Assembly (NCBI RefSeq): GCF_012034175.1
Contig: NZ_JAATEJ010000024.1
Location: 1-64,000, forward strand
From: Actinacidiphila epipremni
GTDB taxonomy: Bacteria; Actinomycetota; Actinomycetes; Streptomycetales; Streptomycetaceae
Length of the DNA: 64,000 bases
Direction of reading: 5' to 3'
The notes below the pieces were generated by a model that had not been told where the DNA came from, did not search any database, and saw only the letters and a program-made list of their open reading frames with translations. This document shows, piece by piece, positions 37,053-51,006 of this stretch (position 1 is its first letter; each line of letters begins with the position of its first letter). Both the position numbers and the translations under genes were made by a program.

Positions 37053-37153
37053 CGCCGTCCCTGCCGTGCCGGCGCACCGCGCACCGGCTCCCCGGCGCAC
37101 CGGCTCCGCGGCTCTTCCGCTCTTCCGCTCCACAGAACGAAAGCGACCCCCTC

Positions 37154-38206
37154 GTGCCGACATCCCTGCACCCCCGCGCGGCCGACACCCCCGCCGGCCG
37201 CACCCCCGAACCCCGCGCCGCCGCCGGCCGCATGACCCGCCGCGGGCTCCTGGCCGGCGGCATCGGTGCCGCGGCCCTGCTGGGCCTGGCCGCCTGCGGC
37301 TCGTCCGACGACTCCGCCGGCTCCCACAGCCCCGGCTCCGGCTCCGCGCCGCGGGCGAGCTCCGCCACCAGCCGCCGGGTCTCGACCCTGCACGGCGAGG
37401 TCACCGTGCCGGCCGCCCCGAAACGTATCGTCCCCTTCGACTTCCCCGAGGTCTGCGCGCTGCTCGACCTCGGCATCATCCCGGTCGGACGCACCACGTA
37501 CGTACCGGACTTCGCCGCCTACAGCACCGCCCTGAAGGGCGTGCCCGCCATCGACGAGGCGTCGAGCGGGAACCTGGCGATCGAGAAGATCGCCGCCCTC
37601 AGGCCCGACCTGATCATCGGCGACGACTGGGCCGACCCGGGCAAGCAGCGGGCACCGTACGCCACGCTCCAGAAGATCGCGCCTACCGCCGTCTTCGCCT
37701 GGGAGCAGGCCGCGGGCAACTGGCCGGCGCTGGCCGCCCAGACCGCGGCGGCGGTCGGCAGGACGGCCGAGCTGAAGGCGCTGCAGGCCACGTACGCCGA
37801 CAAGGCCGCCACGACCAAGAGCCGGTACGCCGCGCTGCTCGCCGCCACCCGCTGGGACGTCATCGACTGCGGCAAGGACTCCTGGGACCTCTACAGCGCC
37901 AACTCCTCGCACGGCAAGGTCCTGGCCGGCGCCGGGCTGCGGCTGGGCGCGGGCGCGAGCCAGAGCGACGGGTACAAGCAGTACTCCCTGGAACGGCTCG
38001 GCATGCTCTCCGCCGCCGGCGCGATCATCACCACCCCGGCCAGCCTGCCGTTCCTGCGCGCGCAGCCGCTCTTCACCGCCCTGCCCGCGGTCAAGGCCGG
38101 CCGCGTCTACACCACCAGCCTGTTCTTCCCGGCCAGCTACGGCATAGCGACCGCCCTGCTGGACGAATTCGCCACCATGTGCGGCACGCTCCAGAAGGGC
38201 GCCTGA
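37154..38206 (+). CDS. Iron-siderophore substrate-binding lipoprotein (first of two)
   Basis: 350 aa from GTG 37154, or 324 aa from ATG 37232, where MTRRGLLAGGIGAAALLGLAACG forms a compact Tat-type lipoprotein signal. Neither start has a strong ribosome binding site, so the choice is uncertain. The mature protein has the FecB-like pattern APKRIVPFDFPEVCALLDLGIIPVG, IEKIAALRPDLIIGDDW and a C-terminal lobe ending near FATMCG. It is paralogous to the next gene, three bases downstream; the two may recognise different siderophores for the same permeases. Confidence 0.9.
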   Translation: MPTSLHPRAADTPAGRTPEPRAAAGRMTRRGLLAGGIGAAALLGLAACGSSDDSAGSHSPGSGSAPRASSATSRRVSTLHGEVTVPAAPKRIVPFDFPEVCALLDLGIIPVGRTTYVPDFAAYSTALKGVPAIDEASSGNLAIEKIAALRPDLIIGDDWADPGKQRAPYATLQKIAPTAVFAWEQAAGNWPALAAQTAAAVGRTAELKALQATYADKAATTKSRYAALLAATRWDVIDCGKDSWDLYSANSSHGKVLAGAGLRLGAGASQSDGYKQYSLERLGMLSAAGAIITTPASLPFLRAQPLFTALPAVKAGRVYTTSLFFPASYGIATALLDEFATMCGTLQKGA

Positions 38207-38208
38207 CG

Positions 38209-39264
38209 ATGACGACCACGCTCCTGCCGCCGCCGGCCGGCCCCGCCACCGACGAGGAATTCCGCCGTATCGCCGCCGAGCTGACCCGCCGCGGCCTGCT
38301 GGCCGGCGGCGCCGCGGCGGCCCTGCTGGGCCTGTCCGGCTGCGGCCCGGGCGAGTCGCGCTCCACCGCGTCCTCGCCCGCCGCCCCGGCCACCCGCCGG
38401 GTGCACACCGCGGACGGCGAGGTGACCGTGCCCGCCGACCCGCGACGGGTCGTCAGCATCGACTACTTCACCGCCGTCTTCCTGCTGGAACTGGGCCTGA
38501 CCCCGGTCGGCGGGATCGACTACTCGTGGGTCGACGACACGACGATGTACCCGCCCTACGTCGCACCGCTGAAGAAGCTGGCGGACATCGGGCAGATCAC
38601 CTCCACCGACTACGAGAAGGTCACCGTCCTGCGGCCCGACCTGATCCTCGGCCCCAAGCAAGGCAGCCGCTACGACAACTCCAAGGGCGCGATGAAGACC
38701 CTCAGGACGGTCGCCCCGGTGGCGTCGGTGGACTTCGGCAACACCGGCGACTGGCGCGGCCCGCTCGCCCAGGCCGCCGCGATCGTCGGCCGCACCGCCC
38801 GGCTGCAGCCGCTGACCGCCGCGTACCGGGCCGCCGTCACAGCGGCCCGCAGCCGCTACGCCGACCTGCTCGCGACCACCAGGATCGCGGTGCTCGACTA
38901 CGCCCAGGACGGGCAGTACACCGTCGACCTGGCGAACTCCGGCAACGGCGTCCTGCTCGCCGACCTCGGCGTCCGCTTCTCGGCGGTCGCCTCCCGCACG
39001 GGCGACCAGGGCGTCAGCCTCTCCTTCGAGCGCGTCCACGAGCTGGCCGACTGCGACCTGATCCTTTACCGCGCCGACGCCCACGGAAAACCCGGCCCGG
39101 GCCTCGCGGAGATGTTCGCCCTCGCCTCCTGGAAGGACCTGCCGGCGGTCGAGGCCGGCCACGCCTACCCGATCGGCTGGTGCGACCTGTGCACCTACCG
39201 CTGGGCCGAGGCCGCCCTCACCGACCTCACCGGCGTCTTCGACCGCTACCGCGGCCACGCCTGA
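38209..39264 (+). CDS. Iron-siderophore substrate-binding lipoprotein (second of two)
   Basis: 351-aa lipoprotein with a 25-residue N-terminal extension before the twin-arginine signal LTRRGLLAGGAAAALLGLSGCG. Family blocks DPRRVVSIDYFTAVFLLELGLTPVGGIDYSW and VLRPDLILGPKQG follow. Starts two bases after the stop of its paralogue, so surely co-transcribed. The binding cleft residues differ clearly from the first copy (aromatic residues YSWVDDTTMYPPY here), which favours a different ferric-siderophore ligand; this is inference. Confidence 0.9.
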   Translation: MTTTLLPPPAGPATDEEFRRIAAELTRRGLLAGGAAAALLGLSGCGPGESRSTASSPAAPATRRVHTADGEVTVPADPRRVVSIDYFTAVFLLELGLTPVGGIDYSWVDDTTMYPPYVAPLKKLADIGQITSTDYEKVTVLRPDLILGPKQGSRYDNSKGAMKTLRTVAPVASVDFGNTGDWRGPLAQAAAIVGRTARLQPLTAAYRAAVTAARSRYADLLATTRIAVLDYAQDGQYTVDLANSGNGVLLADLGVRFSAVASRTGDQGVSLSFERVHELADCDLILYRADAHGKPGPGLAEMFALASWKDLPAVEAGHAYPIGWCDLCTYRWAEAALTDLTGVFDRYRGHA

Positions 39265-39428
39265 CGCCCCGGCACGATCCGCCGACCGCGGCCGTACCGG
39301 CCGGGCCGGCCGCCGGTGCAACCTTCCCGGCGGCGGCGGGGTGAGTAGGGCGGAACCGGGCCCACGGCGGGCCCGGGCGGCGCCGGCCGGCGCCGTACGC
39401 GTACACCACCGGGAAGTGGGGCAGTGCG

Positions 39429-40691
39429 ATGAGCGGTATCGGCAGGCCGGGCGACGGGCACGACGGTGCGGGGGCCGGGGCGCTCGCGGAACCCGCGGCG
39501 GGCAGGCGGGTGCGCAGGCGGCCCGGGGCGGCGCGCCGGCTCGCGGTGCCCGCGGCGGCCTGCGTGCTCGCCGCCGGCGCACTCGCGGGCGCCGGGCAGG
39601 CGACGGCCGCCCCGGCCGTGAGGGCGACCGCCGCCGCGGTCACCTGGCAGCAGACGCCGGTGGACATGCCCTGGGGCAATCTGCTGGCCGTCGGCGGCGA
39701 CGGCACCCCCGGCAACACCTGGGCCACCGGCTTCTCCCTCACCGACGACGGGCAGGCCACCCTCGCGGCCTCCGCCGCGCGGTGGAACGGCACCTCATGG
39801 ATGTCCACCTCCGTGCCCGTGGCTGCGGCCGGCGGCTACCGCGTCTACGGCAGCCGGCTGGACAGCCGGGTCGGCGTCGTCGCCCCCGACGACATCTGGG
39901 CCGGCGGCGACATCATGACCGACGGGCCCGGCAGCGGGACGCAGCCGCTCATCGAGCACTGGGACGGCACCGCCTGGCACCAGACCCCGGCCGACGCCCT
40001 TCCGGCGGGCAGCGAGTTCTACGGCATGGCCGCGCTCGCCGCCGACGACGTCTGGGCCGGCGGCCTGATCGCCGACGCCCCCGGGCTGGCCCACTGGGAC
40101 GGCCGGACCTGGACCCCGGTCACCCCGGCCGCGCTCGCCGGGCTCCCGGAGTACAGCTACGTCACCTCCCTCAGCGCCGCCGGGCCCGACGACATCTGGG
40201 CGGTGGGCGCGGCCGGCCTGGCGGTGCACTACGACGGGCACTCCTGGAAGAAGGTGCCGCTGCCCGCGGTCGGCGACGACGAGATCTGGCTCGAAGGCGT
40301 ACGCACCGACCCCGTCCTCGGCACCTGGGCGGCGGGCTACCGGGTGGGCGCCGACCACATCCGCCACCCGCTGGCGCTGCACGCCGTCGGCGGCGCGTGG
40401 CGGCAGGTGCCGCTGCCCGCGGCGGACGCCACGCAGCTGGAGGACGTGGCCTTCACCTCGGCCGGGGCCGTCGCGTTCGGGTACGTCGACAGCGCCGCGG
40501 AGATCGGCGCGTACGGCGTGACGCTGCCGGTGGCCGGGCGCGGCCGTGAGGTCCCGGTGCCGACCGGGGTCGGCAGCCTCAACGGCGCGCTGGCCGGGCC
40601 CGGTGGCCGCAGCGTGTTCGTGGTCGGCGCCGGGACGTTCGGCGCTTCCGCCTTCCCGCCGTTCGCCGCGCGGACCACATCCCGCTTCTGA
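39429..40691 (+). CDS. Secreted repeat protein, probable beta-propeller
   Basis: 420-aa exported protein. It has a 40-residue Arg-rich start, an Ala-rich hydrophobic segment with cleavage near AATAAPA (about 60), and a mature part built of repeats with the motif DDIWAGG/DDVWAGG/DDIWAVG followed by HWDGxxW, at roughly 45-residue spacing. This is typical of secreted actinobacterial proteins predicted to fold as beta-propellers. No catalytic motif is recognisable. It stands alone after the iron operon; function unknown. Confidence 0.7.
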   Translation: MSGIGRPGDGHDGAGAGALAEPAAGRRVRRRPGAARRLAVPAAACVLAAGALAGAGQATAAPAVRATAAAVTWQQTPVDMPWGNLLAVGGDGTPGNTWATGFSLTDDGQATLAASAARWNGTSWMSTSVPVAAAGGYRVYGSRLDSRVGVVAPDDIWAGGDIMTDGPGSGTQPLIEHWDGTAWHQTPADALPAGSEFYGMAALAADDVWAGGLIADAPGLAHWDGRTWTPVTPAALAGLPEYSYVTSLSAAGPDDIWAVGAAGLAVHYDGHSWKKVPLPAVGDDEIWLEGVRTDPVLGTWAAGYRVGADHIRHPLALHAVGGAWRQVPLPAADATQLEDVAFTSAGAVAFGYVDSAAEIGAYGVTLPVAGRGREVPVPTGVGSLNGALAGPGGRSVFVVGAGTFGASAFPPFAARTTSRF

Positions 40692-40700
40692 GCCGCGGCA

Positions 40701-40736
40701 GGGGAGCCCGGCCGGCGGTCGCGGGCCGGGCTCCCC
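40701..40736. terminator. Bidirectional terminator hairpin
   Basis: Perfect 13-bp stem (GGGGAGCCCGGCC with its complement) and a 10-nt loop between the convergent propeller-like gene and the sigma-factor operon. Confidence 0.8.
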
Positions 40737-40757
40737 GGGGCTGCCCCTGAGCTGCCC

Positions 40758-41462
40758 TCAGCCCGACGCCGGGACGGTGACCGTGGCCAGGACGCGGCCC
40801 TGCCGGTCGTACGCCGTCACCGTCGCCTCGGGCAGGCTGCCGGGGAACAGGAGCGGCACGGCCAGGTAGCCGGCGGTGTAGCCGGGGGTCCCGGGCAGCA
40901 CGGCCATCCGCAGCGGGTAGCGGTGGCCGCGGGTCGCCAGGGTCATCCGGGCCGGGCTGGCGGGGCCGACGTAGAGCGGCACGTACACGGTGCCGTCCGG
41001 CGCGGGCCGCGCCTCGGGCCTGATCCACGCGGTGCCGCCGTCGTCGCTCGGGGCGGCCTCGCACTGCCAGGCGCCGCCGGCGGCGGAGAAGCAGACCTTG
41101 GTCGGGGCCAGCCGCATCCGCAGGCCCGCCCCGACGTCCACGGACCGGTCCGCCGGCACCACCTCGGCCGCCGGCCCGTCGGGGAGGGCCGTGCCGTGCC
41201 CGGTCGGGTCCGGCACACCGCCCGCCGCCCGGTCCCGTAGCTGCGGGGCCGTCAGGACGGCCGCGACCGCGACCGCGGCCAGCACCGGCAGGACGGCCGC
41301 GAGCCGGCGGGCGCGGCGCCGCCGGCCGGCCCGGGCCCGTACCGCCGCCGCGGGCCAGGGCGACGGGGTGAGCGCGCCGCCCGCGGCCAGCAGGCCCTGC
41401 CGGACGGCGCTCTCGGCGTCGGACGGCTCGTCGGAGGGCTCGTCGTACGCTGCCTGCCTCAC
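40758..41462 (-). CDS. Single-span membrane protein coupled to sigma factor (putative anti-sigma-like)
   Basis: 234-aa protein whose GTG start overlaps the sigma-factor stop (GTGA). A short acidic N-terminus with DEPSDEPSDAESAVRQGL, a basic patch RAGRRRRARR and one membrane segment LAAVLPVLAAVAVAAVL (about 58-75) precede an extracellular beta-rich domain with two cysteines. Layout fits proteins co-encoded with SigE-family sigma factors, which may restrain them, but no HxxxCxxC zinc anti-sigma motif is present. I chose this start because the long upstream frame is antisense shadow of the sigma gene. Confidence 0.7.
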   Translation of the reverse strand: MRQAAYDEPSDEPSDAESAVRQGLLAAGGALTPSPWPAAAVRARAGRRRRARRLAAVLPVLAAVAVAAVLTAPQLRDRAAGGVPDPTGHGTALPDGPAAEVVPADRSVDVGAGLRMRLAPTKVCFSAAGGAWQCEAAPSDDGGTAWIRPEARPAPDGTVYVPLYVGPASPARMTLATRGHRYPLRMAVLPGTPGYTAGYLAVPLLFPGSLPEATVTAYDRQGRVLATVTVPASG

Positions 41463-42091
41463 GCCCCCGCCCCCTTCCGCGCCCGCCGGTCGTCCGCCGC
41501 CGTCCCGCCGGGCCCGGGCGCGGGCGCGGACGCGCCGGCCAGCTCCGCCAGCGCCGGGTGGTCGCGCAGCTTGCGCAGCCCCCTGCTGGCCTGGCTCTTC
41601 ACATTGCCCGGCGAGCATCCCAGGATGTCGGCGACCTGCTGCTCGCTCAGGTCCTCCCAGTACCGCAGGACCACCACGGCCCGCTGCCGCGGCGGCAGCG
41701 CGGCCAGCGCCGCCATCAGCAGCGCGCGGTCCTCGACGGGGGAGTGCGGATCGGCCCGGGCCCGCTCCGGCAGCAGCGGGGTCAGCAGATGCACGACCCG
41801 GCGCTTGCGGAACCGGCTGAGGTTGTTGTTGACCAGGGCGCGCTGCACATACGCCTCGGGCACGTCGAGGCGCCGGATGCGCGGCCACCCGAGGTAGACC
41901 TTGGCGAGCGTCGACTGCACCAGGTCCTCCGCCTCGTGGTGGTCCCCCGTCAGCAGATAGGCGGTACGCACGAGATGGGGCCAGCGCGCGCCCGCGAAGG
42001 CGTCAAAGTCCCAGCCCTCCTGCTCCCGCGCCTCGGCGCCGGACGGCGCCGCCGCCGCAGCGCCGCCACCGGAGATCCTCCAGGCCCCCAT
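41459..42091 (-). CDS. RNA polymerase sigma factor, SigE family (ECF)
   Basis: 210-aa ECF sigma factor. Region 2 reads FAGARWPHLVRTAYLLTGDHHEAEDLVQSTLAKVYLGW, region 4 reads ALAALPPRQRAVVVLRYWEDLSEQQVADILGCSPGNVKSQASRGLRKLR, and VQRALVNNNLSRFRKRR lies between them; this is the SigE-family pattern common in actinobacteria. An Ala/Gly-rich N-terminus and charged tail flank these. ATG 42091 has a GGGAGGGG site just upstream. Co-translated with the downstream membrane protein, which probably controls it. Regulon unknown. Confidence 0.92.
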   Translation of the reverse strand: MGAWRISGGGAAAAAPSGAEAREQEGWDFDAFAGARWPHLVRTAYLLTGDHHEAEDLVQSTLAKVYLGWPRIRRLDVPEAYVQRALVNNNLSRFRKRRVVHLLTPLLPERARADPHSPVEDRALLMAALAALPPRQRAVVVLRYWEDLSEQQVADILGCSPGNVKSQASRGLRKLRDHPALAELAGASAPAPGPGGTAADDRRARKGAGA

Positions 42092-42273
42092 CGCGCCCCT
42101 CCCCACCCGCCGCCTCCCCGCACCCGCCCCGGGGCCGGCCCACCCGCCGCCCCACCCCGCACGCGGGCCCCGTCCCTCCCACTCCCCGCGGCCGGAAAAG
42201 GTTGCACGCCGGCCGGCGGCCGGACGGCGTGGCGTGCGGGGGCGGTCGTCCCGGGGCCGGTCATGATGGGGGC
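42092..42273. other. Divergent intergenic region
   Basis: 182 bp between the sigma-factor gene and the pyridoxamine-oxidase-like gene. It is Pro-codon-like C-rich sequence; no operator or clear promoter was recognised. Confidence 0.3.
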
Positions 42274-42699
42274 ATGCCGCAGATGACCGAAGCCGAGTGG
42301 CGGGAATTCCTCGCCTACGGGACGCGTACCGCCAAGCTCGCCACGACCCGCGCGGACGGCAGTCCGCATCTGGCGCCCGTCTGGTTCCTGCTGGACGGCG
42401 ACGACCTGGTCTTCAACACCGGCCGGGAGACCGTGAAGGGGCGGACGCTGCTGCGCGACCCGCGGGTCGCGATCTGCGTCGACGACGAGCGCCCGCCGTT
42501 CTCCTTCGTCCTCGTCCAGGGCCGGGCGTCGCTCTCCGAGGACCCGGCCGACCTGCGCAGCTGGGCGGGCAGGATCGCCGCCCGCTACATGGGCGAGGAC
42601 CGGGCCGAGGAGTTCGCCGCCCGCAACGGCGTCCCGGGCGAACTGCTCGTCCGGGTGCGCATCGAGAAGGTCGTCGCCCTGAGCAGCCTCGCCGGCTGA
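42274..42699 (+). CDS. Pyridoxamine 5'-phosphate oxidase-fold protein, probably F420- or FMN-dependent
   Basis: 141-aa single-domain split-barrel protein. The blocks TAKLATTRADGSPHLAPVWFLLDGDDLVFNT and GRTLLRDPRVAICVDDERPPFSFVLVQGRA match the actinobacterial PPOX-class F420-dependent family, and ARYMGED...GVPGELLVRVRIEKVVAL completes it. Likely reduces an unknown small molecule using F420H2 or flavin. Starts ATG 42274 (or ATG 42283). Convergent with the TPR gene; no functional link visible. Confidence 0.82.
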   Translation: MPQMTEAEWREFLAYGTRTAKLATTRADGSPHLAPVWFLLDGDDLVFNTGRETVKGRTLLRDPRVAICVDDERPPFSFVLVQGRASLSEDPADLRSWAGRIAARYMGEDRAEEFAARNGVPGELLVRVRIEKVVALSSLAG

Positions 42700-42758
42700 C
42701 CGCCCGGTGCCGCGGGGCGGTCAGCCGGCCACGGTCGGCACCCCCGCCCGCGCCCCGT

Positions 42759-44888
42759 TCAGCCGCCGGCCCCCAGCAGGCACATCTCGCGGTGCCGGTG
42801 CAGCTCGTCCAGGTCCGCGCCGGGCAGCTCCAGCGCCCGGTCGAAGTCGGCGAGCGCCAGTTCCGTGACGCCCTGGGCGGCGTACGCGATGCCGCGGTTG
42901 AGCAGCAGGTCCGGGTCCTCGCCGACCAGGCCGAGCGCCGCGGTGAGGTCGGCCACCGCAGCCGCGGGGCGCTCCTGCCGGTAGTGGGTGACCGCCCGGT
43001 TGATGAGCGCCGCCGGATAGCGCGGGTCCAGCGCGAGCGCCGCGTCCAGGTGGGTCAGCGCCGCGGAGAGCGAGCCGCGCTGCAGCTGGATCGTGCCCTG
43101 CATGCACAGCAGCCGCGGCTCGTCCTTGCGCAGCTCCAGCCCAGCCGTCACCCCGCGCTCGGCCTCGTCCAATTCCCCCAGCTCCACCAGCAGTTCCGCG
43201 CGGGCCAGCAGCGTGTCCAGGTCGTCGGGCTCCATCTCCAGGACGTAGCCGAAGTCCGCGAGCGCCCCCTCGACGTCGTCGGCGTCCGCTCTGGCCGTAC
43301 CGCGGTTGTAGAACAACTCGGGGAAGGGCGGGGCGAGTTCGACCGCGCGGTCGTAGTCGGCGAGCGCCGCGTCGAGGTCGCCGCGGTCGCGGGAGATCCG
43401 GGCCCGCTCGGAGAGGTAGTCGGTGTAGTACGGGTCGAGGTCGACCAGCGTGGAGTAGTCGGCGAACGCCTCGTCCGTGCGGCCCATCGCCGCCAGCAGC
43501 CGGGCCCGGTTGTAGAGCAGTTGCGAGCGGTGCAACTGCCATTCGCTCGCGTCCAGTTCGGAGTCCAGCCAGGCGATGCCGTCCTCGATCAGCCGCAGCG
43601 AGCGGTCGAAGTTGCCGCGGTGCATCTCGACCAGGGCAAGGCCGTTGCGGTGGAAGACGCTGAAGGTGCGGCGCTCCTCGGCGTCGGGCAGCACACCGGC
43701 GATGGCGACGGCGTTGTTCTGCCAGCGCAGGGCGAGGTCGTGGTCGCGCGGCCGGAAGAACCGGGTGTGCAGCATGGCGACGGCGTAGCTCGTCATCATG
43801 TGGACCTTCGGCTCGGTGTAGCGCTGGAGCAGGTCCTCGTAGAGCGCCAGCGACTCGTCGAGCAGGCCGATCGGGATGCACGCGGAGGCGGCCTGCTGGG
43901 TGAACTCCCAGTAGTCCCGCCAGTCCTCGACCGGGTCGGTGAGCGCCCGCCCGCGCCGGCCCAGGTCCACCACGGCCGCCGAGAAGCCGGTGTTGACGCA
44001 GAAGACCAGCGCCTCCAGCAGCGTCGCGCGGCCGGCGCCGCCCGGGTCGCCGCCGCGCTCGCGGTGGTAGGCGACGGCCCCGACCACCGTCCGCGGCCCG
44101 GCCCCGGGCTCCAGCTCCGCGGCCCGCTCGTCGTGCAGCCGCCGCACCAGCTCGGGGCGGTCGCGCAACGCCGCCTGGTAGGCGGCCACTTCGGCCGGGT
44201 CGTCGGCGGTGCCGTCCGCGCGGACGTACGCGGCGACCAGGGCGTCTGCCGTACGGTCCGGGTGGGCGCCCTCCGCGCCGTCCACGCCCTCCGTGCCGTC
44301 CGCGGCCTCGCCGCCCTCGCCGGCCTGCACCGTCCGCGCGTGCGCGGCCAGCACCGCGGCCAGCTCGTCGTCCCGCTCCTCGGCCGCCCCGGCGACCGTG
44401 ACCCGCAGCAGCGCCGGATCGGCCCGGCGCACCAGCAGCGCCAGGAACTCCCGGGTGGTGGCCTCGGCCTCGTGCACCTCGTCGAAGACCAGCTCCGGCA
44501 TCGGCTCGCCGGCCTCCCGCGCCCGGCGGGCGTACTCCAGCAGGAAGGTGACGACCCCCTGGCTCATGCAGCGGATCATCCCGGAGCCGAAGAAGCGGGT
44601 GCGCTGCTTGAACGGCGACTGCGAGGCGAGCGTGGCCGGCGCCGCGCCGATCAGTTCCTCCAACTCCGGCATGCCGTAGAGCAGTTCCACCCGGTGCCGC
44701 TCCACCAGCTCCGGGTACGCCTGCCGCGCCCGCGGCAGCACCGCGGACAGCACGGTGTCCACGCCCGTGTACGGGCCGCGCAGCCGCTGGTGGCAGCGGG
44801 CCACCAGCGCCGCCCCGCCCTCACCGGCGCCGCAGGCGGCGATCCGCCCCGCCCACCCCGCCCCGACGATCCTGCGATGTGCCGCCAT
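42759..44888 (-). CDS. TPR protein with ATPase-like N-terminal region lacking a P-loop (RiPP locus)
   Basis: 709-aa protein. The N-terminal 160 residues resemble the lid and sensor part of a STAND/AAA-type ATPase: PELVFDEVHEAEATTREFLALLVRR looks like a Walker B element with adjacent helix, but no Gly-Lys-Ser/Thr P-loop exists. An acidic linker follows (about 180-215), a middle helical region, and at least seven TPR units from about residue 420 to the end, e.g. ALIDYSTLV-type and AALTHLDAALALDPRYPAALINRAVTHYRQE. It starts 15 bp after the peptidase gene, so it belongs to the same operon as the precursor peptide and peptidase. Role unknown; adaptor or sensor for the peptide system is my inference. 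Confidence 0.75.
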   Translation of the reverse strand: MAAHRRIVGAGWAGRIAACGAGEGGAALVARCHQRLRGPYTGVDTVLSAVLPRARQAYPELVERHRVELLYGMPELEELIGAAPATLASQSPFKQRTRFFGSGMIRCMSQGVVTFLLEYARRAREAGEPMPELVFDEVHEAEATTREFLALLVRRADPALLRVTVAGAAEERDDELAAVLAAHARTVQAGEGGEAADGTEGVDGAEGAHPDRTADALVAAYVRADGTADDPAEVAAYQAALRDRPELVRRLHDERAAELEPGAGPRTVVGAVAYHRERGGDPGGAGRATLLEALVFCVNTGFSAAVVDLGRRGRALTDPVEDWRDYWEFTQQAASACIPIGLLDESLALYEDLLQRYTEPKVHMMTSYAVAMLHTRFFRPRDHDLALRWQNNAVAIAGVLPDAEERRTFSVFHRNGLALVEMHRGNFDRSLRLIEDGIAWLDSELDASEWQLHRSQLLYNRARLLAAMGRTDEAFADYSTLVDLDPYYTDYLSERARISRDRGDLDAALADYDRAVELAPPFPELFYNRGTARADADDVEGALADFGYVLEMEPDDLDTLLARAELLVELGELDEAERGVTAGLELRKDEPRLLCMQGTIQLQRGSLSAALTHLDAALALDPRYPAALINRAVTHYRQERPAAAVADLTAALGLVGEDPDLLLNRGIAYAAQGVTELALADFDRALELPGADLDELHRHREMCLLGAGG

Positions 44889-44903
44889 GGACTTCGTCCC
44901 CTC

Positions 44904-46121
44904 TCACTTTCCCGGACCGGCCTGGCCGGCCGCGGCGTTGCGCTTCCTCCTGGCGAGCACGACCAGAGCGGTGACCTGCGCCGCGTTGAAGCCCAGCGAG
45001 ACCACCGAGTCCCAGAAGTGCGCGTCCACATGCCCGGAGCCGATCGCCTCGCCCGCGATGACGAAGTAGCGAATGCCGACCGGAATGCTCGCGTAAACCG
45101 TCACCGCGATGAACGTGCATACACCAAGCACCAGGAAAGGCCCGTAGTAAGCGCCGACTTTCCGGTCCCGCTCGGTCCACTGCGACTCGTCCACGATCCG
45201 GTGCGGCAAGCGCAGTATTCGCCATACGCGGTTCTTCATCAGCGCCTTGCTCGCGTCGTGCAGGTCGTACGTCTTCATCGCGGTCGCCACGACGAAGAAC
45301 AGATCGGTACGCAGGTACAGCTGGAACTGCCAGACCATCCGCAGCGCCACGGTGAAGGCGAGCGCGAGGCACACCTTCGAGGCCGTCGACAGCGCGCCGC
45401 CGTCCGTCCGGGCGGCCTGCGCGGCCAGGTCGAGCAGCGCCAGCACCACCGCGTCGCAGGCCATGCCGGCCAGGAACGGCAGATAGCGCTTGCGGCGCGG
45501 CACGCTCATCAGCCCGTTGATCTGCGTCTCGGCCACGATGTACGTCAGCCGGTTGCTCAGCCGCAGCCGCGTCGGCAGCCCGAGCCGGCGGCCGGCGAGC
45601 ACATGGAAGCCCTCGTGCGCGAGGATCAGCGGCACCTGGCCGAAGGTGATCACCACCTGGACGATCAGCAGCGACTTCACGAAGAAGATCTGCGACGCCT
45701 TCGGCGCCAGGTCGCCGTGCCGCACCACCACCGCCGCGGCCGTGCCGACCACCGCCGCGTAGAGCAGCCAGGCCACCGGCGAGAACACCAGGCGGCCCAG
45801 CCGCCGATAGCGCACCGGGGCCGCCGGCGCGGCCTCCACCGGGGCCTCGGCCGGGTCCGGCCCGCCGGCCGCCGGCTCGCGCAGGAAGCCCAGCTCCTGG
45901 AGGGTGCCGACGAAGTCCTCGACGTCCACCGGCTCGTCGAAGGTGGCCTCGTACCACTCGGCGGCCTCCTCCAGCGGCAGCCCCGCGGCCAGCCGTTTGA
46001 GCAGCTCGGCGCCGTCCGCCGGGAAGACCGCGTACGAACCGGTGTCCATCCGGCCGACGAGGACGTCCTCGCCCTCGGGCACGAAGCTCAGCTCATGGAC
46101 GGAGAGCGTCGATACGCCCAC
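44904..46121 (-). CDS. Membrane HExxH peptidase (M50-like) with N-terminal PqqD/RRE-like domain
   Basis: 405-aa protein from a GTG behind a GGAAGG site. Residues 1-85 resemble a PqqD-type RiPP recognition element (SYAVFPADGAELLKRLAAG to ELGFLRE), expected to bind a precursor leader. A Pro/Ala linker leads to about six membrane segments. The second ends in H169-E170-G-F-H173, the zinc-binding HExxH of M50 site-2-like peptidases; D273 in LYLRTDLFFV is a candidate third ligand. Such proteins cleave or process peptides within the membrane. It follows the tiny precursor gene by 93 bp with a hairpin between them. RRE assignment is from pattern, not a search. Confidence 0.78.
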   Translation of the reverse strand: MGVSTLSVHELSFVPEGEDVLVGRMDTGSYAVFPADGAELLKRLAAGLPLEEAAEWYEATFDEPVDVEDFVGTLQELGFLREPAAGGPDPAEAPVEAAPAAPVRYRRLGRLVFSPVAWLLYAAVVGTAAAVVVRHGDLAPKASQIFFVKSLLIVQVVITFGQVPLILAHEGFHVLAGRRLGLPTRLRLSNRLTYIVAETQINGLMSVPRRKRYLPFLAGMACDAVVLALLDLAAQAARTDGGALSTASKVCLALAFTVALRMVWQFQLYLRTDLFFVVATAMKTYDLHDASKALMKNRVWRILRLPHRIVDESQWTERDRKVGAYYGPFLVLGVCTFIAVTVYASIPVGIRYFVIAGEAIGSGHVDAHFWDSVVSLGFNAAQVTALVVLARRKRNAAAGQAGPGK

Positions 46122-46159
46122 AGCGCCACCTTCCTGGAGTACCCGCCACCCACCTCGGA

Positions 46160-46189
46160 CCGCCGGGGCCCGCAGTGGGGCCCCGGCGG
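46160..46189 (-). terminator. Hairpin between precursor gene and peptidase gene
   Basis: Perfect 12-bp stem (CCGCCGGGGCCC with its complement) and a 6-nt loop, 25 bp after the precursor stop and 38 bp before the peptidase start. It probably acts as a partial terminator or stability element so that more precursor than enzyme is made. Confidence 0.7.
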
Positions 46190-46214
46190 CGTCACGCGGT
46201 CACCGCGCAGGCGG

Positions 46215-46328
46215 TCAGGCGGCGACGGAGTACGGACACTGGCACGCCGCCGAGGTGAGGCGGACGTCCCCGGTCTTGCGCACCGTGATCTTCTTCGCGA
46301 CTCGCTTCATGCCCACCGTGGACTTCAT
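46215..46328 (-). CDS. Putative RiPP precursor peptide, 37 aa
   Basis: Short gene of 38 codons with ATG at 46328 and a GGAGGA ribosome binding site 6 bp upstream. The N-terminal half is a basic leader rich in Lys/Arg/Val/Thr (with Met1 and an alternative Met7), followed by a C-terminal segment LTSAACQCPYSVAA containing the only cysteines (Cys29, Cys31), Thr/Ser and Pro. Size, charge pattern and position directly before a gene for an RRE-bearing membrane peptidase are those of a ribosomally made, modified peptide. No known RiPP class motif was recognised and no cyclase, dehydratase or radical SAM gene is nearby. Which residues are modified is unknown. Confidence 0.7.
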   Translation of the reverse strand: MKSTVGMKRVAKKITVRKTGDVRLTSAACQCPYSVAA

Positions 46329-46914
46329 CACGATCCTCCATTCAACAAAAAAGGGGCCGACCCGGCAGGGCGACGTACGCGTTCTGAATCTCTGACCGAT
46401 CCAGACTTTCCGATTCGCCCGCGGGAAGGACCCGACGGCACCGACCGATCGGCCGATGCACGAAAAGGTCCGCCAGGAAGTCGCCTTGTGTCAAGTGGAA
46501 TGCGGAGCCGCCGGATACGCCGAAGTGAGCAGACGGCGTAATAACGCATGGCCAAGCGCGCCGGCCGGCACCGCATCCGGAATCGTGGCGTGAATGGTGG
46601 GCTTGATGCCCTTCCGGTGTTTCGGGCCGGCCCGGGCGGCGGCGACCACTTCCGTCACGCCGTTCCCGGCCGACTCTTACGGCCCACCCGTCGGCCCGGG
46701 TGGCGGCGCCGGCGTATCCGCGCTGCGCCACCTGCGGTATGCGGACGGTTCACCTCCGGGACGGGTAGGGCTACTCCCGGGTGTCCACGGGGTCCCGGCG
46801 CCCGCTCCTTTCGGACGTTCCGCGCGGCGCGGCGGGCGGCCGGGCCCGGCGGGCGGACAGCGAAACGGCCCGGCCGGGGGTCCCGGCCGGGCCGCTTCGG
46901 TGTCGGGTGGTGCG
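46329..46914. promoter_or_regulatory. 586-bp region upstream of the precursor gene
   Basis: Mainly the leader of the peptide operon (minus strand). A TTGACA -35-like box lies at 46489-46494 (minus) but no good -10 follows. A CCGATCGG-rich palindromic stretch lies near 46437-46459 and a T6 tract (46348-46353 region) follows a small GC hairpin just before the ribosome binding site. Open frames here on either strand are Arg-rich and unlike proteins. The left end holds the cellulase terminator (46867-46893). Confidence 0.4.
46867..46893 (-). terminator. Terminator of cellulase gene
   Basis: Perfect 11-bp stem GGCCCGGCCGG/CCGGCCGGGCC with a 5-nt loop, 21 bp after the cellulase stop codon. Confidence 0.8.
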
Positions 46915-48426
46915 TCAGGAGACCGTGCAGGCGGCGCCGTTGAGGGTGAAGGCGGTGGGCGCGGCGCCGGAGCCCGTTCCCTGGAAGCCGAAGCTCGTGG
47001 AACCGCCGGCCGGGACGGCCGCGTTGTAGCCCAGGTCGGTGGCCGTCACGGCGGCGCCGGACTGGGTGGCCTTGGCGTTCCAGGCGTTGGTGATCTTCTG
47101 GTTGCCGGGGAAGGTCCAGGCGAGCGACCAGCCGTTGACGGCGCTGGTGCCGGTGTTGCGCACGGTCACGTCAGCGGTGAAGCCGTCCGTCCAGGCGCTG
47201 GCGATCTTGTAGCTGATCGCGCAGCCCGCGCCGGCCGGCGGGGTCGTCGGCGGAGTGGTGGGCGGTGTGGTCGGGGGAGTCGTCGGCGGGGTCGTCGGCG
47301 GCGTGGTCGGAGGAGTCGTGGGCGGGGTGGTGGGCGGTGTCGTCGGGGGAGTCGTGGGCGGGGTGGTCGGCGGGGTCGTCGGGTCCGACGCGGCGGCGGA
47401 GGCCAGCGCGTAGGCCTGGTCGGGCAGGAAGGTGCCCGCGGTGCCGGCGCAGCCGTCCGCCTCACCCGGGGGCTTCACCCAGAGGAAGGCGTCGATCGCC
47501 GGGTCCCCGGTGTTGGTCGTGGGGTAGGTGCCGAGGGCGCGGCCGGACGGATCGCACCACTCGCCGCCGCCGGCCGGCCCGTTGCCGTTGCGGCTGGTGT
47601 CCACCACCGCGTGCAGGTTGGCCGGATTGCCCAGCGCGGACAGCACGTTCTTGGCGAAGTTGACCTCGTTCGCCGTCGTGTTGAAGTTGGAGACGTTGGT
47701 GAACAGCCCGTCGGCGTTGGTCAGGATGCCGGCGCTGCGCAGCCGGTTGGCCTGCTCCGAGGCGCTGTTCCAGGCCGAGTGGCCGCCGTCCAGGTAGACC
47801 TTGGCGTTGGGCGCGGCGGCGTGGATGGAGGCGCCCGCGCGGGAGAGCGAGGCGAACCGGTCCGACTGCTGCTGCGCCGACAGGCAGGTGGTCAGCGCGA
47901 TGGAGTCCGGCTCCAGGATGATGATCGACTGCCCGCTGCCGAGCCCGGCGGCGAAGTTGCGCACCCAGGTGTCGTACGAAGCCAGGTCCGGCGCGCCGCC
48001 GGCGGAGGCGCCGCCGCAGTCGCGGTTGGGGATCTCGTACACCGCCAGCACCGGCACCTGCCCGGCGGCTGCCGCGGCGGAGGTGACCGTCCGGACGTCG
48101 CTGGTGATCGTGCTGGGGCTGTAGTTGGAGAACCAGATCGCCTGCGGCTGGGAGGCGATCCGCCGGGAGATGATCGGCTGCCGGGAGTCGCCGGGGTTGG
48201 CGGCGACCCACCGTACGACCTGGGAGTTGGGGTCCGTGTAGAGCTGGGTGCCCGCCGGCAGGCTGCCCTGCGGGGCGGCGCCGGCGCTCATCTGGGTGCC
48301 CAGTGCGATACCGGTGGCCGCGAGGCCCGTGGCCAGGCCGAGCGCCGCGGCCTTGCGCAGGCGCGAGGCGCGGGTGGGGGCCGCAGCCGCGCCGTCGGGG
48401 CGCGGGGTGGGGCTGGGGGGTGTCAC
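46915..48426 (-). CDS. Secreted GH6 cellulase with C-terminal CBM2
   Basis: 503-aa secreted endoglucanase-type enzyme. Signal peptide in residues 1-50, GH6 catalytic domain about 55-345 with YEIPNRDCGG (Asp136), ILEPDS (Asp174, expected proton donor) and WVKPPGEADG, then a long Thr-Pro-Pro linker and a C-terminal CBM2 cellulose-binding domain (CAISYKIASAWTDGFTADVTVRNTG to the terminal Cys). GTG start behind GGAGGA. It hydrolyses beta-1,4-glucan outside the cell. The CebR-type operator 70 bp upstream and the divergent GH1 gene place it in the cellobiose-induced regulon. Confidence 0.93.
   Translation of the reverse strand: MTPPSPTPRPDGAAAAPTRASRLRKAAALGLATGLAATGIALGTQMSAGAAPQGSLPAGTQLYTDPNSQVVRWVAANPGDSRQPIISRRIASQPQAIWFSNYSPSTITSDVRTVTSAAAAAGQVPVLAVYEIPNRDCGGASAGGAPDLASYDTWVRNFAAGLGSGQSIIILEPDSIALTTCLSAQQQSDRFASLSRAGASIHAAAPNAKVYLDGGHSAWNSASEQANRLRSAGILTNADGLFTNVSNFNTTANEVNFAKNVLSALGNPANLHAVVDTSRNGNGPAGGGEWCDPSGRALGTYPTTNTGDPAIDAFLWVKPPGEADGCAGTAGTFLPDQAYALASAAASDPTTPPTTPPTTPPTTPPTTPPTTPPTTPPTTPPTTPPTTPPTTPPTTPPAGAGCAISYKIASAWTDGFTADVTVRNTGTSAVNGWSLAWTFPGNQKITNAWNAKATQSGAAVTATDLGYNAAVPAGGSTSFGFQGTGSGAAPTAFTLNGAACTVS
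47226..47385 (-). repeat. Coding repeat for Thr-Pro linker
   Basis: About a dozen tandem 12-bp units encoding Thr-Thr-Pro-Pro between the catalytic and cellulose-binding domains of the GH6 enzyme. Such repeats can expand or shrink in frame. Confidence 0.85.
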
Positions 48427-48495
48427 AGTTGTCCTCCGTGCTCTCGTGGGGGGAGAGGACCCTCGTGGGGAAGGGCCGGATGCGCGGGGCGTCCG

Positions 48496-48509
48496 TGGGA
48501 GCGCTCCCG
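48496..48509. promoter_or_regulatory. CebR-type operator
   Basis: TGGGAGCGCTCCCG, one base from the known 14-bp CebR palindrome TGGGAGCGCTCCCA. It lies between the divergent cellulase and beta-glucosidase genes and could repress both when cellobiose is absent. Confidence 0.85.
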
Positions 48510-48703
48510 CGCAACCGCGCCGAGCCTAGCCAGTACGGCTGGGCCGCACAAATGTCCGTACAATACCCGGGCGTTCGCCGTTCGTCCCGGCCCGCTCCCC
48601 GACCGGCGTCCGGCGGCCCGAAGAGCCAGGTCGCAGGGCCGTCCGGCCGGTGGCGGGCGGGTGACCCGGCGCCGCGAGGACCGACCACCTGAGGAGCCGT
48701 GCC

Positions 48704-50098
48704 ATGACCTCCGCCCCCGCTCCGCGCTTCCCGCGCGGCTTCCGGTTCGGCGCCGCCACCGCCGCGTACCAGATCGAAGGCGCCACCGGCGAGGACGGCC
48801 GCGGCGTGTCCATCTGGGACACCTTCTGCCGCACGCCCGGCGCCACCGCCGAGGGCTCCACCGGCGACACCGCCTGCGACCACTACCACCGCTACCGGGA
48901 GGACGTCGCGCTGCTGCGCGAACTGGGCGCCGACACCTACCGCTTCTCGATCGCCTGGCCGCGGATCGTGCCCGCGGGCACCGGCGCGGTCAACCCCGCG
49001 GGCCTGGACTTCTACGACCGCCTCGTGGACGAGCTGCTCGACGCCGGCATCGAACCGGCCCCCACCCTCTACCACTGGGACCTGCCGCAGGCTCTGGAGG
49101 ACCGGGGCGGCTGGCGGGTCCGCGACACCGCCGAGGCATTCGCCGAGTACGCGCTCGTGGTCGCCGAGCGGCTCGCCGACCGGGCCGGGCGCTGGATGAC
49201 GCTCAACGAGCCGTTCTGCACCGCCTTCGTGGGCCACGCCGTCGGCCGGCACGCCCCCGGCACCCGCGAGGGGAACGGCGCGCTCGCCGTCGTGCACCAC
49301 CTGCTCGTCGGCCACGGGCTCGCCGTGGACGCGCTCCGCGCCGCCGGCGCCCGCGAGGTCGGCATCGCCCTCAACCCCGACCGGCTGCTGCCCGCCACCG
49401 GCTCGGCGGCCGACGCCGAGGCCGTGGCACGCGCAGAGATCCTGCACAACCGCTGCTGGTTCGACCCGGTCTTCCTCGGCCGCTACCCCGAGGGCGAGAA
49501 GGAGGTCTGGGGCGACATCAGCGACTTCTCCTTCCGGCGCGACGGCGACCTCGCGCTCGCCTCCCGCCCGCTGGATTTCTGCGGCGTCAACTACTACCGG
49601 CCCATCACCGTCGCCGACGCCCCCTGGCGGGAGGCCGATCCGGCGCGGCGCACCGCCGACGACATCCGGGTCCAGGAGACCTGGGGCGACGACACCGCCC
49701 GCCGCACCACGATGGGCTGGCCCGTGGTCCCAGCCAGCTTCCGCGACCTGCTCGTCGACCTGACCCGCCGCTACCCCGGCCTGCCGCCGCTGGTCATCAC
49801 CGAGAACGGCTCCGCCGAGGCCGACGCCCCCGAAGCCGACGGCACCGTCCACGACACCGACCGCGTCGAGTACCTGCGCGACCACCTCGACGCCCTCGCC
49901 CAGGCCGTCGCCGAGGGCGTCGACGTGCGCGCCTACTACGTATGGTCGCTGCTGGACAACTTCGAGTGGGCCTTCGGCTACGACCGCCGCTTCGGCATCG
50001 TCCGCGTCGACTACGACACGCTGCGGCGCACGCCCAAGGACAGCTACCGCTGGTACCGGGACTTCATCGCCGCGGAGCGTGCCGCACACGCGCGCTGA
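48704..50098 (+). CDS. Beta-glucosidase, GH1
   Basis: 464-aa cytoplasmic enzyme with the GH1 fold start FPRGFRFGAATAAYQIEGA, acid/base Glu169 in TLNEP and nucleophile Glu367 in ITENG, plus YVWSLLDNFEWAFGYDRRFGIVRVDY near the end. It splits cellobiose and other beta-glucosides imported after cellulase action. Divergent from the GH6 gene across the CebR-type site; resembles the bglC genes of streptomycetes, though here it is not attached to cebEFG importer genes. Confidence 0.93.
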   Translation: MTSAPAPRFPRGFRFGAATAAYQIEGATGEDGRGVSIWDTFCRTPGATAEGSTGDTACDHYHRYREDVALLRELGADTYRFSIAWPRIVPAGTGAVNPAGLDFYDRLVDELLDAGIEPAPTLYHWDLPQALEDRGGWRVRDTAEAFAEYALVVAERLADRAGRWMTLNEPFCTAFVGHAVGRHAPGTREGNGALAVVHHLLVGHGLAVDALRAAGAREVGIALNPDRLLPATGSAADAEAVARAEILHNRCWFDPVFLGRYPEGEKEVWGDISDFSFRRDGDLALASRPLDFCGVNYYRPITVADAPWREADPARRTADDIRVQETWGDDTARRTTMGWPVVPASFRDLLVDLTRRYPGLPPLVITENGSAEADAPEADGTVHDTDRVEYLRDHLDALAQAVAEGVDVRAYYVWSLLDNFEWAFGYDRRFGIVRVDYDTLRRTPKDSYRWYRDFIAAERAAHAR

Positions 50099-50129
50099 CC
50101 GCGGCGGGCCGGCCGGCGCGGCGGGCGGC

Positions 50130-50435
50130 TCACCAGCTGGACTTGCGGACGCCGGGCAGGTGCCCGGCGTGGGCGTGCCGGCGCATGCTCACCCGGGACA
50201 GGCCGAAGGCGCGCAGGTGACCGCGCGGGCGGCCGTCCACGCTGTCGCGGTTGCGCACCCGGGTGGCGCTGGCGTCGCGCGGCTGGCGGCGCAACTCCCG
50301 CTGGGCGTCGGCGCGTTCCTGCGCGCCGGTCGCCGGGGAGGCGATGACGCGCTTCAGCTCCGCGCGGCGTTCGGCGTAGCGGGCGACGACCTCCCGGCGG
50401 CGGTCGTTCGCGGCGATCTTGCTCTTCTTGGCCAT
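50130..50435 (-). CDS. rpsN: 30S ribosomal protein S14, zinc-independent paralogue
   Basis: 101-aa S14. It has the long bacterial form ([28 protein letters not shown]) and the C-terminal block [34 protein letters not shown], lacking the CxxC zinc motif of the short form. Replaces the zinc-binding S14 under zinc limitation. Second gene after L28 on the minus strand with a 9-bp gap; part of a Zur-type set divergent from L33. Confidence 0.95.
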
Positions 50436-50444
50436 GGTTCCCCC

Positions 50445-50681
50445 TCAGACGTGGTGGCCGCGGGCGCGGATCAGCCGCACGGCCTTGTCGATGCCGATGC
50501 GGTCGACGGTCTTGATGCCCTTGGCGCTGAGCGTGAGGCGTACGTACCGCCGCTCGGCGGGCAGCCAGTACCGCTTGGACTGGACGTTGGGGTCGAACCG
50601 GCGCGGGGTCCGGCGGTGGGAGTGGGAGATGGAGTTGCCGAAGCCGGGCTTGCGGCCGGTCAGTTGGCAGTGGGCGGACAT
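50445..50681 (-). CDS. rpmB: 50S ribosomal protein L28
   Basis: 78-aa L28 paralogue starting [36 protein letters not shown]-type (family blocks [11 protein letters not shown] and VQSKRYW). First gene of the minus-strand pair with S14. It keeps a single Cys (Cys5) and so lacks a zinc ribbon. A Zur-like box lies about 45 bp upstream. Confidence 0.94.
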
Positions 50682-50722
50682 GCGCACCCTTCGGTCGGGG
50701 GGGACGGTGGGGAAGACCTTAT

Positions 50723-50737
50723 AGAAAAACGTTTTCA
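50723..50737. promoter_or_regulatory. Zur-like box upstream of L28-S14
   Basis: AGAAAAACGTTTTCA with a perfect AAAACGTTTT core, matching the streptomycete Zur consensus TGAAAATGATTTTCA at 11 of 15 positions. Strikingly AT-rich for this genome. Confidence 0.65.
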
Positions 50738-50814
50738 TTTCCAAACGAGGTCGGGTGCGTCGGATCCGGGCGTCCGGGCGGGCGCCAAGGTGGGAGTCCG
50801 GGTGCTGTTGCGAA

Positions 50815-50829
50815 TGAAAATCGTTTCCG
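50815..50829. promoter_or_regulatory. Zur-like box upstream of L33 operon
   Basis: TGAAAATCGTTTCCG, 12 bp before the L33 start codon; matches the Zur consensus in its left half and 11 of 15 positions overall. Confidence 0.65.
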
Positions 50830-50841
50830 TATAGTGGGCGC

Positions 50842-51006
50842 ATGGCACGCACCGACGTACGACCGATCGTCAAGCTCCGCTCCACCGCGGGTACCGGCTA
50901 CACCTACGTGACCCGCAAGAACCGCCGCAACGACCCCGACCGGCTGGTGCTGCGCAAGTACGACCCGGTGGCGCGCCGGCATGTCGACTTCCGCGAAGAG
51001 CGCTGA
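50842..51006 (+). CDS. rpmG: 50S ribosomal protein L33, zinc-independent paralogue
   Basis: 54-aa L33 starting [20 protein letters not shown], with [22 protein letters not shown] and C-terminal FREER. No CxxC pair remains, so this is the zinc-free form. First gene of the plus-strand operon L33-L31-COG0523-S18, immediately after a Zur-like box. Confidence 0.95.

Follow-up and report, generated by a model that had tools for sequence, protein, structure and literature searches.

The three genes at positions 42759-46328 of a 64,000-nucleotide stretch of Actinacidiphila epipremni DNA (hereafter the window) form one unit, as indicated by the conserved linkage of the two large genes, the precursor genes found upstream of them and the occurrence of genome-wide precursor matches only beside the protease gene. 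In minus-strand order, and just as an earlier note made from the sequence had described them, they code for a 37-residue peptide, a membrane protein with an HExxH motif and a 709-residue protein with tetratricopeptide repeats (TPR). The peptide resembles the precursors of ribosomally synthesised and post-translationally modified peptides (RiPPs), and the membrane protein is predicted to be an M50-type protease fused to a RiPP recognition element (RRE). We consider it probable that this protease, guided by its RRE, releases a short peptide containing Cys and Tyr, that the TPR protein is a dedicated partner in this pathway, and that the peptide is a signal rather than a bacteriocin.

Linkage and conservation of the three genes

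The scan of named genomes covered 80 loci, which are the best 80 of 196 relatives and are not phylogenetically independent. A homologue of the TPR gene adjoins the protease gene in all of them, and a leader-bearing short open reading frame (ORF) lies upstream in 78, so the conserved short ORF on which the earlier note had made its reading depend is indeed present. The relatives belong to Streptomyces, Kitasatospora, Streptacidiphilus, Actinacidiphila, Saccharothrix, Lentzea, Kutzneria, Streptosporangium, Nocardia, Micromonospora, Amycolatopsis and other genera; the overall spread takes in Actinomycetota and two Ktedonobacter (Chloroflexota). Among 394 genomes of the family, the protease (E<1e-90) and the TPR protein (E<1e-60) occur together in 74, the protease without the TPR protein in none, and the TPR protein without the protease in two (G015 and G212), both fragmented drafts. 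This search scored at most two TPR and four M50 candidates per genome, so copy counts are lower bounds and absences are less certain. Within the genus, 23 of 35 genomes have a protease homologue (only a weak one in two of the 23). In a class-level sample the protease reaches E<1e-100 in 8 of 394 genomes, and 9 more contain weaker relatives only. A plasmid-borne element was considered and rejected, as a single match (annotated 'hypothetical protein') was found among 72,556 plasmid records.

The 8.2 Mb genome to which the window belongs contains two further copies of the protease gene (43 and 45% identity), and each is preceded by a precursor gene that encodes the same leader. The second copy (L004, C19:134000-146000), located on the same contig, is accompanied by two tandem precursors differing only in their C-terminal tails. 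The third (L005, C90:113000-126000) has the core SSAPLYCTDCC, a nearly identical version of which is also present in Micromonospora, and a flavin reductase gene follows its TPR gene.

A ribosome-binding site, GGAGG at 46335-46339, precedes the ATG of the peptide gene. Across the precursors the leader hardly varies (MKKIxVRKxGxVRLT), whereas the tail past LT, 10-23 residues in length, differs from clade to clade. Each of the 80 distinct tails drawn from 85 distinct precursors contains one or more Cys and one or more Tyr. The pattern used to collect the precursors consists of leader positions alone; the count took in both strands of the loci and excluded matches that were 70 aa or longer or lacked a stop. 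When tail residues were shuffled among tails, the two residues coincided in 45.8 tails on average and in 57 at most (2000 trials). Clustering of the tails at 60% similarity left 33 representatives, all of which contain Cys and Tyr, compared with 20.2 on average and never more than 27 after shuffling (5000 trials). The order of the two residues varies (Cys comes first in 44 tails and Tyr in 36), and so does their spacing. The Cys-Gln-Cys core singled out in the earlier note is real in the clade of the window and is not a conserved feature of the system, the general rule being Cys plus Tyr. Tail type tracks the protease tree, and an M50 clade keeps its core even where it spans several families. 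The window's CxCPY type, for example, is common to Streptomycetaceae, Pseudonocardiaceae, Streptosporangiaceae and one Frankiales bin.

A strict pattern recognised precursors in 70 of the 80 loci, and a looser leader-only one, widened after inspection of the misses, in 78. At L120 / L030 the protease and TPR genes stand without a recognised precursor, and a core-like stretch, LTTACYYSCSQA, lies upstream with no leader in frame. A precursor profile built from 24 sequences gave 36 matches at E<=1.5e-7 in 35 whole genomes of the genus, the next best match having an E-value of 0.0064. All 36 are located at most 410 bp upstream of a same-strand M50 gene of this family, and 35 of the 36 M50 genes detected in these genomes at E<=1e-70 have a precursor match. 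Several rows of the profile derive from the searched genomes, so the recovery of those was expected while the lack of strong matches elsewhere was not. Neither Pfam nor NCBIfam matched the window peptide, and the same holds for four other precursors compared with Pfam and six with NCBIfam.

The 70 nt past the stop codon of the peptide gene fold more stably than shuffled sequence, with a mean z of -3.74 and values below -2 in 67 of 78 loci. Control stretches before the peptide gene, inside the protease gene and after it have mean z of -0.74, -0.05 and 0.27 and fall below -2 in 15, 3 and 1 of 78 loci, respectively. Across loci the whole gap between the peptide and protease genes has a mean z of -2.78 (39 of 78 below -2); the window's own 96-nt gap is weak when taken alone (z -1.18). 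Such a hairpin would be expected if the peptide gene were expressed in excess over its processing gene.

Predicted folds of the protease and the TPR protein

The AlphaFold model of the window protease has a pLDDT (predicted local distance difference test) of 91.5. Its residues 4-84 match the RREs of lasso-peptide B1 proteins solved with the leader bound (Z 10.3, 2.3 A, 79 residues): 6jx3_B (Z 10.3), 5v1u_A (10.1) and 5v1v_A (10.0) rank highest, and PqqD (5sxy, Z 7.6) is among the lower matches together with TigE, ThcOx, a sactipeptide synthase, McbBCD, MccB and PbtF. The PqqD/RRE-type assignment of the first 85 or so residues, made in the earlier note, is therefore borne out by the fold, with the Pfam PqqD match of the window protein itself being sub-threshold (E 0.089, 13.6 bits, cut-off 23.4). 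At E<=0.1, 9 of 27 homologues match PqqD (best 1.9e-5) and 5 of 27 match Peptidase_M50 (best 4e-4). The window protease does not match Peptidase_M50 and has no Pfam or NCBIfam model above cut-off. Searching the solved structures by sequence returned nothing significant (best E 0.92, with the protease profile).

Residues 153-354 resemble RseP (9j82_A; Z 8.4, root-mean-square deviation 4.3, 159 aligned). All 46 protease sequences compared share H169, E170, H173 and D273; HExxH is present in all 80 homologues and [TQ]D[LIV][YF] in 78. D273 is proposed to be a metal ligand, and HExxH with a distal Asp in a membrane domain is the pattern of a putative M50 or site-2 protease (S2P). Those features of RRE-dependent RiPPs that were tested are found here, namely an RRE-carrying protease and a leader-bearing short precursor side by side.

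Relatives that score lower against the protease (E roughly 1e-35 to 1e-75) occur without the TPR gene; they are the sole type in 26 of the 394 family genomes, and none of these 26 is among the genomes with a TPR gene at E<1e-60. Eleven loci of lower-scoring RRE-M50 genes were compared (L165-L173, L052 and L053), and ten of them contain a ThiF/E1-like gene cluster, two members of which were typed by NCBIfam and several of which have, by eye, an RRE-like N-terminus. The two genes apparently constitute a separate RiPP-like pair. Since these relatives pair with a ThiF/E1-like gene and not with a TPR gene, the RRE-M50 enzyme is suggested to be a module reused with different partners.

The model of the TPR protein (pLDDT 90.5) has an alpha/beta region followed by a long TPR superhelix. 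Pfam AAA_16 is weakly matched at E<=1 by 18 of 23 homologues (best 5.6e-4); in the window protein (E 0.18, 12.8 bits, cut-off 32.6) residues 110-158 align with positions 114-161 of the 167 in the profile, a part which we take to contain Walker B. The likeness to AAA_16 comes from these weak matches and from a reading of the modelled secondary structure. Walker A (GxxxxGK[ST]) is absent from the window protein and, after in-frame extension upstream, from 79 of 80 homologues, in line with the 'P-loop-less' label of the earlier note; the sole P-loop-like match (L111) precedes the homologous part by 41 residues and perhaps falls outside the protein. Structure matches are generic TPR proteins, which hardly probe the N-terminal region, and the best hit of a sequence search of solved structures with the N-terminus was not significant (E 0.17). 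Judging from its motifs and model, we regard the TPR protein as a probable member of the STAND type in which the binding of both ATP and DNA has been lost. A role in defence was considered and rejected: PADLOC had no match to the protease, and the TPR protein gave a single weak hit to a PrimPol model (E 3e-4).

Table 1. Features of the peptide, protease and TPR genes in the window
Feature	Position	Strand	Remarks
Precursor peptide gene, 37 aa	46218..46328	minus	Stop codon at 46215-46217; product MKSTVGMKRVAKKITVRKTGDVRLTSAACQCPYSVAA
Conserved leader KKITVRKTGDVRLT	46254..46295	minus	Consensus MKKIxVRKxGxVRLT; 85 distinct precursors, alignment of 24
Core SAACQCPYSVAA with Cys and Tyr	46218..46253	minus	80 of 80 distinct cores; putative leader/core boundary
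GC-rich hairpin, stem about 13 bp, possible attenuator	46159..46190	minus	Between peptide stop and protease start
RRE-M50 intramembrane metalloprotease gene (predicted), 405 aa, GTG start	44904..46121	minus	
Protease RRE domain, residues 4-84	45870..46112	minus	Structure match
Protease M50/S2P membrane domain, residues 153-354	45060..45665	minus	Structure match to RseP
Zinc motif HEGFH, residues 169-173	45603..45617	minus	Asp273, invariant, is the proposed third ligand
TPR protein gene, 709 aa	42759..44888	minus	
AAA_16-like alpha/beta region without Walker A, about residues 28-190	44319..44807	minus	Model and weak Pfam matches
TPR superhelix, about residues 245-707	42768..44156	minus	Pfam and model

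Neighbouring genes and possible functions

Genes were clustered over 102 loci, a partly redundant set (L035-L054 and several of L085-L164 share their genomes with L007-L034). The TPR protein was recovered in 91 loci and the protease in 66 (some were lost by ORF calling). Since the next cluster, a flavin reductase, reaches 25 of the 102, no third gene is near-universal; among the relatives, too, no modifying enzyme regularly accompanies the set, in agreement with the earlier note. Flavin reductases and regulators were counted by clustering, with few members typed by Pfam. The flavin reductase cluster is located beside the TPR gene in 20 of the 80 named loci, in 19 of which it is on the same strand and at most 280 bp from the end of the TPR match; one of its members was typed as PF01613, a family with 10 genes in the genome of the window. 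Another frequent neighbour cluster was typed as FMN oxidoreductase. Transporter-like clusters, read by eye, are infrequent: of 102 loci, 8 have an MFS-like one, and ABC-like ones reach 5 and 4.

Regulator-like clusters are found near 34 of the 80 loci, and each of these loci has one or more such genes no farther than 1 kb from the operon. The four regulators typed by Pfam are a BTAD+NB-ARC+TPR protein, an HTH_31+NB-ARC+TPR protein, an AAA_16 protein with a LuxR-type helix-turn-helix (HTH) and a small BTAD protein; Walker A is kept in all 28 members of two large regulator clusters at these loci. As the genome of the window holds 17 BTAD genes in all of its 8.2 Mb, this proximity is unlikely to be due to chance, the density control being a rough one based on one genome and on BTAD only.

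In the window itself, two consecutive genes resembling those of substrate-binding proteins are located on the plus strand at 36539-39264. Read by eye, their products have lipoprotein-type starts (TRRGLLAGG...AACG / SGCG), and the pair perhaps serves iron-siderophore uptake.

We favour the following mechanism. In the precursor, a leader that is basic and probably folds into a beta-hairpin (KKIxVRKxGxVRLT) would be followed by a tail of 10-23 residues. The N-terminal RRE of the protease would capture the leader on the cytoplasmic side, so that the tail could be fed to the membrane-embedded zinc site and cut near the small residues past LT, freeing a short Cys/Tyr peptide, while the hairpin would keep the precursor in excess over the protease. 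The TPR protein, STAND-like and apparently devoid of both P-loop and HTH, most likely binds the precursor or the mature peptide and relays a signal, and in many genomes the target of this relay may be the neighbouring SARP, NB-ARC or LuxR-type regulator. RRE-guided proteolytic release appears well supported by the anatomy of the locus and by precedent. Of the two products envisaged in the earlier note, a released peptide and a modified one, the anatomy of RRE, M50 domain and precursor supports the former, the latter being a hypothesis suggested by the Cys plus Tyr rule. A signal is favoured because cores are conserved within clades, regulators are frequent neighbours and transporters are not.

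Several observations weigh against this picture. Two of the 80 loci (L120 and L123) have no recognised precursor. Two unrelated-looking methyltransferase chains (Z 7.7 and 6.8) appear among the structure matches of the RRE domain; Foldseek ranks RREs first for the protease, yet with weak E-values (best 0.11), and the Z-score of 8.4 with RseP is below the level of about 13 given by the comparison tool for helical proteins. Long TPR superhelices match many unrelated proteins. The available flanks of 46 of the 80 loci contain no regulator cluster, and the window's own operon has no regulator neighbour among the ORF clusters.

The Cys plus Tyr rule suggests that the product may instead be a modified natural product or redox cofactor, in which the two residues are chemically changed (e.g., into a Cys-Tyr thioether or an oxidised Tyr) before trimming by the protease; we regard this as possible, though clearly less probable than release of a signal. 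The modifier, just as tentatively, could be the M50 or TPR protein, the flavin reductase of some loci or an enzyme encoded elsewhere. The persistence of both residues in 80 of 80 cores despite varying order and spacing speaks for such chemistry, as do the flavin reductases that adjoin the TPR gene at 20 of the 80 loci (against 10 PF01613 genes in the window's genome) and the ThiF-like adenylating protein adjoining the lower-scoring RRE-M50 relatives. However, no modifying enzyme is near-universal and the flavin reductase cluster is missing from 60 of the 80 loci, the two residues could serve binding or folding instead, and judged by titles and abstracts the matches listed in our literature search include no Cys-Tyr RiPP precedent. 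A bacteriocin that kills neighbours, with the TPR protein conferring self-protection, seems unlikely. It would agree with the hairpin after the precursor gene, as in high-copy peptide genes, with the differing core types and three copies in one genome, with the MFS-like clusters of 8 loci and with the leader removal by an S2P-clan enzyme described for TMcin (PMC13252029). Against it stand the low frequency of transporter clusters (8, 5 and 4 of 102 loci) and the retention of one core type by a clade even across families (e.g., CxCPY), as diversification would be expected of peptides in an arms race.

M50 enzymes often cleave other membrane proteins (RseP, SpoIVFB). The protease might likewise act in regulated intramembrane proteolysis on another membrane protein, with the short ORF as a mere regulatory leader peptide and the hairpin as an attenuator. 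We consider this very improbable, as conservation of the short ORF is at the amino acid level, the leader being nearly fixed and no core lacking Cys or Tyr, an RRE is part of the protease, and beyond the protease and TPR genes no cluster exceeds 25 of 102 loci. GC-rich DNA is rich in short ORFs (90 of at least 30 aa overlap positions 38000-51000), yet the probability that the peptide gene is a chance ORF is practically nil, given a leader kept in 78 of 80 loci and in two phyla and 36 strong matches in 35 genomes, all beside an M50 gene; this explanation was rejected on conservation.

A compact operon with a simple genetic rule (a near-fixed leader and Cys plus Tyr in each core), whose large genes occur together in 74 of 394 family genomes, is easy to express and test owing to its size of three genes. 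Should the peptide be a signal, streptomycetes would have in this operon a peptide circuit that adjoins the sort of regulators known to govern specialised metabolism; a chemical bond between Cys and Tyr, if there is one, would represent RiPP chemistry without a recognised modifying enzyme. Taken to its full extent, our reading would describe a new, mainly actinomycetotal RiPP class, in which an RRE-guided intramembrane protease frees a Cys/Tyr peptide (perhaps Cys-Tyr cross-linked) that is read by a pseudo-NTPase TPR receptor of STAND origin acting on SARP/LuxR-type regulators and that could control specialised metabolism. This complete chain is speculative, and we hold it to be rather doubtful.

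Comparison with known systems

The succession of an NTPase-like region and TPRs may be shared by the TPR protein with STAND regulators (AfsR/SARP with NB-ARC, LuxR-type with AAA_16). Such relatives with an intact Walker A are found near many of the loci, but the TPR protein itself has neither Walker A nor a DNA-binding domain. RRNPP systems (Rap, PlcR, PrgX) are similar in having a propeptide gene next to the gene of an intracellular receptor (PMC10075063), and RapI and a phage Rap are among the structure matches of the TPR protein (Z 18.4 and 18.3), tied with many unrelated TPR proteins. Unlike RRNPP systems, the operon has a third partner, the RRE-M50 protease, as well as an RRE-type leader, and its TPR protein, which gave no HTH match, contains a region resembling AAA_16; no Rap, PlcR or PrgX family is among the 21 Pfam families listed.

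TMcin is comparable in that its leader is removed by an S2P-clan HExxH protease. Its precursor has a transmembrane helix and its protease is of the DUF3267 type (PMC13252029), while the precursor described here is short and basic; TMcin was rejected on account of these differences in precursor and protease type.

Epipeptides require a radical SAM epimerase, and no gene cluster of this kind is frequent beside the operon in the clustering of 102 loci. Their leader and core are presumably also unlike those found here. NF058609 (YydH/LiaK) is matched by 1 of 46 protease homologues (E 0.0094). We therefore rejected the assignment to epipeptides for lack of a recurrent radical SAM cluster. The likeness lies in the M50 protease of a RiPP locus, with EpeP/YydH, TglG and TmoG being named for epipeptides and pearlins in PMC10885120.

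Daptides provide the precedent for an RRE fused to a leader-removing intramembrane protease, MpaP/DapP (NCBIfam NF041824; PMC10036551). NF041824 is matched at E<=0.01 by 2 of 46 protease homologues (best 3.2e-6) and not by the window protease; a lower-scoring relative obtains 14.9 bits against a cut-off of 300. Daptide precursors end in Thr (PMC10036551), as does none of the 85 distinct precursors here. The daptide decarboxylase, aminotransferase, DUF-RRE and methyltransferase genes are not recurrent in the clustering of 102 loci, in which the four enzymes were not searched for individually. As C-terminal Thr is missing and the other daptide genes do not stand out in the clustering, the operon was not assigned to daptides.

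Judged by titles and the beginnings of abstracts, none of the literature matches listed describes this system, and no paper was found to contain the leader sequence. Since RRE-M50 enzymes act in daptides and M50 enzymes in epipeptides and pearlins, and since the NCBIfam daptide model is touched by two of the homologues, the enzyme type is already known, and the pathway, as far as we found, apparently is not. The gene set, the leader, the core rule and the TPR partner are thus the parts for which we found no prior description, while RRE-M50 leader peptidases as such are known.

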